The notes: a model not told the origin generated them from the letters alone. 49,031 bases of DNA from an uncultured Candidatus Nitrosopumilus sp. (GCA_905479565.1 CAJQMY010000007.1:1-49031); one strand, 5' to 3'; numbered from the stretch's first letter, positions 16,190-18,974 are shown. Numbers and translations are program-made.

Positions 16190-16462
16190 TTATGACTGCG
16201 TCTCCTTTTTCACCGTATCCCATCCCACTGGCAACAAAGAATATTTTTTCATCAGAAGGTAATCTTGTTTGTTAATGGAAAAGAGGCCGGAATTGTTCCG
16301 ATCCACAGTTGTCGTATTTGTGGATGTGTTGTCTGATGATTGCACATGTCCCAGACCGACTATTCCAACACTAATGGCTACAACTGCTGCAACTATGATG
16401 ATCCAGAACAGGACTTTCTGCCTCACTATAATCACATCATTGGGATTTGCATTTCTTTTCAT
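16190..16462 (-). CDS. Small single-pass membrane protein in the Hsp20/zinc-ribbon operon
   Basis: The 90-residue protein has a basic N-terminus, one transmembrane helix (about residues 17-39, VLFWIIIVAAVVAISVGIVG) and an outer Ser/Thr/Asn-rich linker followed by a short amphipathic end (NKQDYLLMKKYSLLPVGW). It overlaps the upstream zinc-ribbon gene by four bases (ATGA), so translation is probably coupled. It is the last gene of a minus-strand set that begins with an Hsp20 frame. The family was not recognised. Confidence 0.65.
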   Translation of the reverse strand: MKRNANPNDVIIVRQKVLFWIIIVAAVVAISVGIVGLGHVQSSDNTSTNTTTVDRNNSGLFSINKQDYLLMKKYSLLPVGWDTVKKETQS

Positions 16463-16653
16463 GGTGCGAGCCCCTCCCTGAAGGAAATTCCTGACTGCAG
16501 TTTGTCAATGTTGTAAAAACATGAGGAATGGAATCTTTTTTCAGTCATTTCTCCGCAGTCCTGACATATTCGCATCACTGCTTGCAAACAATGTCTGCAT
16601 TTTGCATATTCATCCAACACTCCCCCGCACTTCCTACACGATTCATCGGGCAT
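16459..16653 (-). CDS. Three-pair zinc-ribbon microprotein (copy A)
   Basis: The protein carries C-x2-C-x9-C-x2-C-x7-C-x2-C-G-x-M-x-E-K-R-x-H-x2-C, enough for at least two structural zinc ions. The same spacing and the M-x-EKR-x-H-x2-C ending recur in the protein at 18792-18974, so the two are paralogues. A GTG at 16665 directly after the preceding stop could also start the frame, but the AGGTGA sequence there is better read as a ribosome binding site for ATG 16653 (64 residues). It lies between a 50-residue basic protein and a single-pass membrane protein. Confidence 0.7.
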   Translation of the reverse strand: MPDESCRKCGGVLDEYAKCRHCLQAVMRICQDCGEMTEKRFHSSCFYNIDKLQSGISFREGLAP

Positions 16654-16665
16654 GATGTTTTTCAC

Positions 16666-16818
16666 CTATGGAAATTTTTTATTTCCACGACGACCTTCTG
16701 ACGTGTAGTTGTTTTTGGCATCATTAAGGGATCTAATCAAGGATTTTCTGATAGTTTTCAGAGAATTCATCATCACTGATGCAGACAGTTTTGAAAGAAT
16801 AGATTCATGGTCTTTCAT
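16666..16818 (-). CDS. 50-residue basic microprotein
   Basis: The frame starts 14 bases after the Hsp20 stop, with an AGGA ribosome binding site a few bases ahead, and its TAG directly abuts the next gene. The product is a helix rich in Lys, Arg and Ser (SLKTIRKSLIRSLNDAKNNY) with no cysteines. Close packing within the minus-strand set is the main evidence. The function is unknown. Confidence 0.5.
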   Translation of the reverse strand: MKDHESILSKLSASVMMNSLKTIRKSLIRSLNDAKNNYTSEGRRGNKKFP

Positions 16819-16832
16819 TTTTTTGTCCTGTT

Positions 16833-17311
16833 TTATTCAACTGACACGATTTTGCCCTTTGGCTTTTCTTCGGCAAGGGCAAATGTCAATGCCAGTATCC
16901 CGTTTGTGTACTTGGCTTTTGCGGAATTTTCATCCACTTTGTATTTCAGTGGAATCTTGACACTGTATTTTCTACCCTCATGTTCTGCAGATATCGAGAC
17001 AATGCCATCTGTGACATCAACCTGTATGTCTGATTTTTTGATTCCTGGCATTTCAGTTACCAGTTGGAGTATCTTTTCCTTTTCGTCAAGGGTCTCATCC
17101 ACATGCGGCTCCCTTGCACCATCAAGATTTGCCCGTCTTGCATTTCCACATTCCTTTACTCGGGGTTTGCCGTCAGGTCCACGGTCATCTGATAGCCGTA
17201 GTAGTATGGACCACAAGCTTGCACTTGTCTTCTGTTTGGATTTTCAAAGATGTCGCCCGTGTTAAAAAAATCGATTCGACATTCTTCGAAATGTATTTTC
17301 GAATTGGTCAT
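16833..17311 (-). pseudogene. hsp20: Hsp20/alpha-crystallin small heat-shock protein, frame broken near 17180
   Basis: The downstream part encodes an alpha-crystallin domain (VTEMPGIKKSDIQVDV... to ...NGILALTFALAEE). The normal N-terminal part lies one frame away: from ATG 17311 it reads MTNSKIHFEECRIDFF... to CGPYYYGYQMTV, which should continue as GPDGKPRVKECGN. One additional C in the CC at 17179-17180 (G on the coding strand) would join the parts into a 159-residue protein, normal for the family. The ATG at 17216 that opens the shorter 127-residue frame gives an unrelated N-terminus and is unlikely to be used. It is the first gene of a set with the microproteins at 16666-16818, 16459-16653 and 16190-16462. 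A TTTATATTTT box at about 17362-17371 is its likely promoter. Confidence 0.7.
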
Positions 17312-17446
17312 CAAACCACATTTGTTATCACTGAATGTATGTAATGCAGCTTACAAAATATAAATATTTCTAATAATTCATCCATAAATTACATAATGTC
17401 CTATTTATGACAAAATTAAAATATCTGATAGGTTCGTATTGCAACA

Positions 17447-17665
17447 ATGCAGTCCCATATTCTTGAATACGACAAGATGCAGGCAAAGCCAAGATCAGAA
17501 AGACAAGTGACGTATTTTTGCAGGCTGTGCAGAAAATATAACATAAAAACAAGAAAGGCCCATCTGCAGAACTTCCACAATGCAAGTCGGGATACCGTCA
17601 CCAAACGCAGCAACAATGATCTTGTTGACGTGATTTTTACTACATCATATCAGTCCAGGTCCTGA
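17447..17665 (+). CDS. C2H2-type zinc-finger small protein
   Basis: The 72-residue basic protein holds one finger of the form C-x2-C-x10-H-x4-H (YFCRLCRKYNIKTRKAHLQNFH) between an N-terminal helix and a Ser/Asn-rich tail. An AT-rich box near 17411-17422 is placed for a short-leader start. Such single-finger proteins in archaea are thought to bind nucleic acid, but the target is unknown. Its last 21 bases overlap the convergent 43-residue zinc protein. Confidence 0.6.
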   Translation: MQSHILEYDKMQAKPRSERQVTYFCRLCRKYNIKTRKAHLQNFHNASRDTVTKRSNNDLVDVIFTTSYQSRS

Positions 17666-17776
17666 GAACTCTTTTCTGCACCTCAGCGAACAAAACTCAC
17701 TCTCACGGGTATCGCAATCTTCACCCATGGGACATAGAAACTCCTTTCCGCAAACTGGACATGTGTGCTGCTTCAT
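17645..17776 (-). CDS. 43-residue Cys-rich zinc microprotein
   Basis: The frame encodes CPVCGKEFLCPMGEDC followed by FCSLRCRKEF, a ligand pattern like small treble-clef zinc domains, in which the FCSxxC turn is typical. Seven cysteines in 43 residues and uninterrupted coding character support it even though it is short. It lies between the C2H2 gene and the Hsp20 gene at 18031. Its promoter may lie in the AATATTTTATAAA region near 17833-17844. Confidence 0.55.
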   Translation of the reverse strand: MKQHTCPVCGKEFLCPMGEDCDTRESEFCSLRCRKEFSGPGLI

Positions 17777-17857
17777 CTGTTCACTTCCTTGGGAATGTGT
17801 GCAAAATTAAAAAATAAAGTTTTTGGAAAAAATTTATAAAATATTTTGCCGCATATT

Positions 17858-17942
17858 CACTCGATAACGAGTGCGCTTCATTAGTCAAAACGCAATATGC
17901 GTTCGTTAGTCCCCGAGAGCCATACATTTTCACACTCGGGGA
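17858..17942. other. Cluster of three perfect hairpins upstream of Hsp20
   Basis: Three perfect inverted repeats occur in 85 bp: CACTCG/CGAGTG (17858-17863 with 17868-17873), AACGCA/TGCGTT (17889-17894 with 17898-17903) and TCCCCGAG/CTCGGGGA (17910-17917 with 17935-17942). They follow an AATTTATAAAATAT box at 17831-17844 and precede the Hsp20 ATG by about 90 bases. They could be operators, a structured leader or a small RNA. Confidence 0.45.
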
Positions 17943-18030
17943 CATTGCCAATATTGAAAGAGATGCTGGTTTTCAAATGACGATAACCAATTATGATAAT
18001 CTACAAAAAAATTAAATTTCTATTTTACCT

Positions 18031-18546
18031 ATGACTACCCTAATGACCAATAACAATCAAGACGATAACGATGAAAAAAGAAAACTAATTCCATTTTGGA
18101 ATTCGGGGTTCAATGATCTGGACAAAGTCTTTGACAACTTCAAGCGAGATTTTGAACACGCCTTTACGTCAGCATTTTCGACGACAAAACCATTTGGCCA
18201 TATGTTTGAGCAATCATCTTCTACTGTATGTGATTTGGTGGACGAAGGAGACAAGTTTGTAGTCACTGCAGACATGCCACGAATAAACAAAGATGAAATT
18301 AACCTGGACGTAGGCGATGATTACATAGACATCTCGGCTGAACACAAGGAATCCGAAGAGGAAAAGAAGAAGAAATACATCAGAAAAGAGCACAGCGAGA
18401 TATCCATTCACAGACGAATGTCTCTTCCTGGACGAGTGAAATCATCAGAGGTAAAGGCCAAGCTAGACAACGGCATACTCACAGTTGATCTTCCAAAGGA
18501 GAATCCCACTCCTCAGCCAAAAACGACTAAAATTAGCATAGAGTAA
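18031..18546 (+). CDS. hsp20: Hsp20/alpha-crystallin small heat-shock protein
   Basis: The 171-residue chaperone holds unfolded proteins until ATP-dependent systems refold them. It has a variable N-terminus with the FDNFKRDFEHAF helix, a complete alpha-crystallin domain (about 66-155) including the NGILTVDLPKE beta9 motif, and a C-terminal tail TTKISIE carrying the I-x-I motif used for oligomer assembly. ATG 18043 is an alternative start four codons in. It converges on two zinc microprotein genes and follows a hairpin cluster at 17858-17942. Confidence 0.92.
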   Translation: MTTLMTNNNQDDNDEKRKLIPFWNSGFNDLDKVFDNFKRDFEHAFTSAFSTTKPFGHMFEQSSSTVCDLVDEGDKFVVTADMPRINKDEINLDVGDDYIDISAEHKESEEEKKKKYIRKEHSEISIHRRMSLPGRVKSSEVKAKLDNGILTVDLPKENPTPQPKTTKISIE

Positions 18547-18597
18547 AAAAGGCTAAATTCTCAATTTATTCTTTCTTTTTATTTTTATGCAAAAAAT

Positions 18598-18762
18598 CTA
18601 TTTTATTCTTGCACCTTCTGTCTTTTTCTTCTCAAACTCCATCATTTTTCTGAAGCATACAAGCATCTCTTCATTGACATGAGTGAGTTTTGACAATTTA
18701 CATATTGGGCAGATTTCATATCTCTCTTTTAATTCTGGGGTGCTGTCATTCTTTGGATACAA
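18598..18762 (-). CDS. 54-residue CxxC microprotein
   Basis: The frame opens at TTG 18762, right after an in-frame stop, and encodes YEICPICKLSKL followed by a helix with a third cysteine and a Lys/Glu-rich end (RKMMEFEKKKTEGARIK). It starts 29 bases after the stop of the zinc-ribbon gene at 18792-18974 and is probably its operon partner. The peptide reads as coding, but the start codon is uncertain. Confidence 0.5.
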   Translation of the reverse strand: MYPKNDSTPELKERYEICPICKLSKLTHVNEEMLVCFRKMMEFEKKKTEGARIK

Positions 18763-18791
18763 TCAAGAGCAATTTCTTTAAAAAAATAATT

Positions 18792-18974
18792 CTAGTGGGA
18801 CTGGGTTTGAACCAACATCGAATTAACATCCATTATCATGCAGGCAGGATGCATTCTTTTTTCTGCCATTATCCCACAAGTGTGACAGAAAAGTCTTATT
18901 GGTTCGTTGCAGAACTTGCATACTCTTTCCACTTCTAGTTTAGAGTTGCAAATTTTACATGACTTGTTTTCCAT
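18792..18974 (-). CDS. Three-pair zinc-ribbon microprotein (copy B)
   Basis: The 60-residue protein matches copy A at 16459-16653 in every ligand spacing: C-x2-C-x9-C-x2-C-x7-C-x2-C-G-x-M-x-E-K-R-x-H-x2-C. ATG 18974 is preferred over ATG 18992 because the TTTTTAAACC box at 18997-19006 predicts a start near 18977. Both paralogues sit beside an Hsp20 gene, suggesting a repeated functional association. The function is unknown. Confidence 0.65.
   Translation of the reverse strand: MENKSCKICNSKLEVERVCKFCNEPIRLFCHTCGIMAEKRMHPACMIMDVNSMLVQTQSH

Follow-up and report, generated by a model that had tools for sequence, protein, structure and literature searches.

The 49,031-nucleotide stretch of an uncultured Candidatus Nitrosopumilus sp. 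(GCA_905479565.1, CAJQMY010000007.1:1-49031), analysed over its full length and referred to here as the window, carries between positions 16,190 and 18,974 two small zinc-binding protein genes, termed zinc microproteins A and B, together with two Hsp20 genes, further short open reading frames and two copies of a palindromic operator (Table 1). In the initial annotation, made from the DNA sequence alone, A and B were described as paralogous three-pair zinc-ribbon proteins, each lying beside an Hsp20 gene, and a stress module was suggested. Both open reading frames are present on the minus strand and the cysteine pattern given for them matches letter for letter; the divergent C2H2 microprotein and the operator had been missed. 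Of the four Hsp20 genes in the window's genome, two are at this locus, and both score above the PF00011 cut-off of 20.8 bits (35.2 bits for the Hsp20A region and 80.7 bits for the second gene), as does the intact Hsp20A of a relative (30.8 bits).

Table 1. Features of the Hsp20 and zinc microprotein locus, in order along the window
Feature	Position	Strand	Remarks
Single-pass membrane protein	16190..16462	-	90 residues; start overlaps the stop of A
Zinc microprotein A	16459..16653	-	C-x2-C-x9-C-x2-C-x7-C-x2-C-x8-H-x2-C; ATG at 16653, GTG at 16665 possible
Basic peptide	16666..16818	-	50 residues; divergent relative of 39-45 residue peptides ending KWKxGRRNFP
Hsp20A	16833..17318	-	frame interrupted twice; open part 16833-17216 with alpha-crystallin domain
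Operator copy 2	17340..17355		TGTAATGCAGCTTACA; one mismatch to TGTNATN4ATNACA; between TATA-like element and Hsp20A
Operator copy 1	17397..17412		TGTCCTATTTATGACA; one mismatch; 57 bp from copy 2; between Hsp20A and C2H2 gene
C2H2-type microprotein	17447..17665	+	FCRLCRxYxIKTRKAHLQNFHN; divergent from Hsp20A
CPVC zinc peptide	17645..17776	-	43 residues; same place kept in relative G022
Second Hsp20	18031..18546	+	other subclass; without operator
CPxCK peptide	18598..18762	-	54 residues; beside B; kept in G022
Zinc microprotein B	18792..18974	-	same family as A, separate subfamily

A and B are indeed homologous. With A as the sole query, B was recovered at E=6e-7, and against the family profile both proteins reach about 1e-22; a third family copy of this genome lies on contig 10, away from Hsp20. 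The alignment of copies showed that the three C-x2-C pairs are followed by a fourth conserved ligand pair, H-x2-C, so that the number of pairs proposed at the outset has to be raised from three to four. The eight ligand columns (C,C,C,C,C,C,H,C in 161 distinct copies) are all kept in 146 of these. Since four pairs make eight ligands, each protein probably binds two zincs. Family-wide conservation is confined to the ligands and a few nearby residues; the GxMxEKR string is common to A and B and is not a family feature. The ligand pairs are exactly spaced, as expected of a fold.

Linkage to Hsp20 was scored with counts not corrected for common descent. Taking the whole family, an Hsp20 gene is present within 1.5 kb for 13 of 98 copies, against 0.68 expected, and the other 85 are found elsewhere; the signal stems from two subfamilies. 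Subfamily A, which was delimited by score (at least 93 bits vs. at most 66 bits for relatives not linked to Hsp20) and includes the A of the window (104.7 bits), has 18 copies in 95 genomes of the genus, every one of which adjoins a gene of the Hsp20A subclass. It is located downstream of Hsp20A on the same strand at 17 of the 18 loci and upstream at one (G245). Hsp20A itself occurs at 20 places; A is missing at two of them, one at the end of a contig (G004) and the other a second Hsp20A copy of G156. The presence of A and Hsp20A agrees across the 95 genomes (Fisher 2e-18, uncorrected for ancestry), and the distances for Hsp20A, the intervening basic peptide and A are correlated (r 0.45-0.62). 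Subfamily B has 17 copies in the 95 genomes, of which nine lie within 2 kb of any Hsp20 gene (0.2 by chance), most of these just upstream of the Hsp20A cassette. The pairing with Hsp20 that had been proposed for both microproteins is therefore strict for A, and B is tied to Hsp20 more loosely.

The genes around A form a compact cassette. Between Hsp20A and A there is a basic peptide of 39-45 residues ending in KWKxGRRNFP, which a pattern search recognised at all loci of the genus that have both Hsp20A and A, apart from G245 and the window, where the peptide is present in a divergent version. The C2H2 microprotein gene lies upstream in divergent orientation: it is present in 35 of the 95 genomes, and of its 17 best copies within the genus, 16 lie next to Hsp20A. 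A is often followed by an overlapping CHRC zinc peptide and then by a membrane-anchored protein with a CxxC domain. In the window, the overlap of the A stop with the start of the membrane protein gene, together with the basic peptide frame abutting the extended frame of A, suggests translational coupling. The initial annotation had named both the basic peptide and the single-pass membrane protein as operon partners of A; the former is conserved, and the 90-residue membrane protein has no homologue in the 95 genomes and was rejected as a member of the module.

Genes flanking the cassette fall into 12 groups over 20 loci, some of the stretches being short, and the cassette is thus found at many chromosomal sites, in at least ten different settings, with an unchanging internal order and spacing. 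A held-out test was provided by a second genus, in that A was found there by a later family search and the loci were read afterwards. In all three genomes with A, Hsp20A is located just upstream and is preceded by the operator pair; the basic peptide was recognised at two of the three loci and a divergent C2H2 gene is present at two. At the third (L248, G393) a thermosome gene takes the place of the C2H2 gene. G015 (L084/L221) likewise has a thermosome gene divergent from Hsp20A, and in both cases the operator region is common to the two genes.

The operator is a palindrome, TGTNAT-N4-ATNACA, present in two copies between the C2H2 gene and Hsp20A. Relative to the Hsp20A start their positions are -92 and -35, with a spacing of mostly 57-58 bp, and the nearer one is downstream of a TATA-like stretch. 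In ten genomes scanned with the pattern, the element was also present immediately ahead of core Hsp20C, whose promoter has one copy; its remaining matches fell almost exclusively within reading frames. By class, the operator precedes 15 of 17 Hsp20A genes and 10 of 10 Hsp20C genes as listed; one of the latter (L084, G015) is an Hsp20A cassette by gene order, which makes the strict Hsp20C count 9 of 9 and leaves the conclusion unchanged. Other Hsp20 classes gave 0 of 33, setting aside two cassette copies (G022 and the window, one mismatch each) that the script had misfiled there, and 1.1 percent of random stretches of equal length contain the operator. In every locus read, including that of the window's genome, Cdc48 lies directly 3′ of Hsp20C.

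Phr of Pyrococcus furiosus offers a known parallel: it controls Hsp20 and the Cdc48-type ATPase VAT1 via one palindromic heat-shock operator (PMC10746257), and here too a common palindrome stands ahead of the Hsp20A and Hsp20C-Cdc48 genes. As in the Phr regulon, the operator is close to the gene start; it differs in its sequence, and no zinc microprotein cassette has been described for Phr. In Archaeoglobus fulgidus, HSR1 acts on an Hsp20 operon through the repressor site CTAAC-N5-GTTAG, and the repressor gene is part of the operon (PMC9133787). The two cases have in common an archaeal Hsp20 operon with a palindromic site, but the site sequences differ and the cassette described here has no helix-turn-helix gene.

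Two cassette products were considered as binders of the operator. A as an operator-binding repressor was rejected, because genomes that lack A, such as G129 and G013, have both the operator and Hsp20C. The C2H2 microprotein as the sole binder was rejected as well, being present in 35 of 95 genomes only, with the Hsp20C operator found in its absence, e.g., in G129. A conserved protein of 221 residues with a weak ACT-domain match is encoded divergently from Hsp20C, with which it has the promoter region in common (L004, L224-L244), and may be regarded as a candidate regulator.

Taken together, we consider it reasonably probable that the cassette is an accessory small-heat-shock operon of the Hsp20C-Cdc48 stress regulon, with A as a partner or adaptor of Hsp20A; a hand-over of clients is not insisted on. 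The two parts of this reading differ in strength. That the cassette belongs to the stress regulon is likely. That A is an adaptor is put forward tentatively: the strict tie of A to Hsp20A, and not to Hsp20C, suggests that it serves Hsp20A as an adaptor or cofactor. Hsp20A, the basic peptide and A would be expressed as one operon, with the C2H2 microprotein gene divergent from it. A putative core repressor, with a job like that of Phr or HSR1, would occupy the operator and leave it upon heat or protein-damaging stress, and the cassette and Hsp20C-Cdc48 would then be induced together. Less surely, A would be a small, zinc-folded protein, perhaps of short life, that partners Hsp20A and either hands its held clients on to the Cdc48/proteasome or thermosome side or tethers them there, and the basic peptide may assist A in this.

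Several observations count against this proposal. The Hsp20A match of the window (16836-17318) contains an in-frame TGA and a TAA and is thus not an intact frame; intact copies are present in relatives. Because both breaks fall in short single-base runs, a sequencing error and a pseudogene are both possible, and with the imperfect operators the broken frame may mean that the copy in the window is decaying or mis-sequenced. The operator was defined on some of the loci that were also counted, which makes the count partly circular; the sites in the second genus are independent of that definition. The Mantel correlation between A and Hsp20A is modest (r=0.45, p=0.01), and common ancestry could be its source. 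No expression data for the cassette genes were found in the literature searched. Finally, most family copies adjoin unrelated genes, such as those for methyltransferase, TFB and exported proteins (gene names assigned by eye), and the domain of A is accordingly not specific to heat shock. Of the stress module first suggested, what stands is the cassette of Hsp20A, peptide and A with the operator common to Hsp20C-Cdc48, and an association of the family at large with Hsp20 does not.

The main alternative is that A binds nucleic acid and regulates its own operon or neighbours, each paralogue controlling the gene adjacent to it. A precedent is Brz of Halobacterium, a small zinc-finger protein whose gene immediately precedes bop, in the same orientation, and which is needed for bop mRNA (PMC2253796). 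Like Brz and the haloarchaeal CPxCG proteins, members of the present family have 50-70 residues, cysteine pairs, many paralogues per genome and adjoining genes that they possibly serve, and the paralogues of A lie next to many different genes, often divergently and close. However, the present family has four pairs of fixed spacing, belongs to another sequence family, has Hsp20 as a partner and, unlike the haloarchaeal proteins, came here only from ammonia-oxidizing archaea and their near relatives. The position of A also fits poorly, as in nearly all loci it follows Hsp20A within the operon by 147-325 nt, and the Hsp20C operator exists in genomes that have no A. Moreover, basic residues are not conserved in A, and the basic character sits in the separate peptide. 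We regard such a regulatory role as somewhat unlikely.

It was also considered whether the cell makes these zinc- and cysteine-rich peptides under stress to buffer metal or redox state, i.e., as a zinc store or thiol sensor, with Hsp20A merely co-induced. The clustering of unrelated cysteine-pair peptides in the cassette (A, the overlapping CHRC..CxKC peptide, a CMKC peptide and the C2H2 microprotein) would agree with this. Yet in the ten genomes scanned the operator connects the cassette with Hsp20C-Cdc48 rather than with metal genes, and the exact spacing of ligand pairs is kept, as in a fold, which leaves the buffer a poor prospect. Inherited synteny without functional meaning, to which the descent of all loci from one orthologous cassette rather than many independent origins and the phylogeny-uncorrected counts would lend some weight, is very improbable given the 12 groups of flanks around a fixed internal order and spacing and the retention of the cassette in the three held-out genomes of the second genus. 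The accessory operon of the Hsp20C-Cdc48 regulon, with A as a partner of Hsp20A, therefore remains the reading that we prefer.

As to the fold of the microproteins, searches of Pfam, NCBIfam and PHROGs assigned no family to A, B or their small neighbours. The nearest profile is Pfam DZR (PF12773, double zinc ribbon), with a weak match in 13 of 19 members (best E 0.0016); the order and spacing of its cysteine pairs are similar to those of the zinc family, and its gathering cut-off of 27.3 bits was missed by both A (13.8 bits) and B (14.0 bits). Cross-braced domains of the RING, ZZ and B-box types likewise have eight ligands in four pairs. The best matches in a profile search of the PDB were yfgJ (E 0.0089), the Mdm2 RING (0.027) and the Sequestosome-1 ZZ domain (0.25), none of them significant, and a relation to the ZZ domain of Sequestosome-1/p62 was dropped at an hhalign probability of 2 percent. 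A Foldseek search with the model of A against PDB and viral libraries returned nothing below E 0.1. The AlphaFold models of A and B both have beta strands at residues 12-18 and 25-30 and a helix from residue 43, at middling confidence (predicted local distance difference test 74 for A and 78 for B; predicted template modelling score 0.51). In a cross-brace, zinc would be shared between ligand pairs 1+3 and 2+4; pair 2 is lost in two copies, and neither has pair 4 intact, a small sample for judging the pairing. A carries CRKCG and CQDCG with a spacing of 7-9, and the resemblance to CPxCG-type proteins is that of a loose class, not of homology.

Judged from the sequences found, this is a multi-copy family of ammonia-oxidizing archaea, present in 242 of 400 genomes of the order with up to nine copies per genome. 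A survey of named genomes with the subfamily-A peptide pattern, covering the best 80 loci, placed it in Nitrosopumilus, Nitrosotenuis, Nitrosotalea and related archaea. The sole exception among these loci was a typical family member (L158, BMAH01000059.1) labelled Gammaproteobacteria BBSC-SA02, probably a mislabelled or contaminated assembly. One branch of the family lies beside a TFB transcription factor gene (15 loci, e.g., L089:8174-9067). In some copies the zinc domain makes up the N-terminus of a longer protein of 200 residues, which also has a membrane span and another conserved domain, NCLAYGSGxSxTVTCPT.. (L124, L134, L139, L145, L150, L159, L164 and others). We also observed that 49 of 161 family copies (30 percent) end in a hydrophobic residue plus alanine vs. 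10 of 640 neighbouring proteins (1.6 percent), related copies not being independent in these counts. Such a [LVIMF]A tail is degron-like, a possible hint of a short life.

In the literature searched there was no heat-shock regulator or small-heat-shock cofactor for ammonia-oxidizing archaea. The most far-reaching interpretation would be a new archaeal proteostasis system, i.e., a transferable cassette whose dedicated zinc-microprotein and basic-peptide cofactors link Hsp20 to disposal by Cdc48/proteasome, an undescribed thaumarchaeal heat-shock operator, and a family of general adaptors with C-terminal hydrophobic-alanine degrons; at this breadth we think it unlikely. The outcome is a defined operator, a candidate regulon consisting of the Hsp20A cassette and Hsp20C-Cdc48, and a set of microproteins open to direct tests. 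The operator in common with the core Hsp20-Cdc48 operon makes it possible to connect an unnamed zinc microprotein with a stress pathway, and at least one branch of the large unnamed zinc family of these archaea is thereby placed in a functional context.

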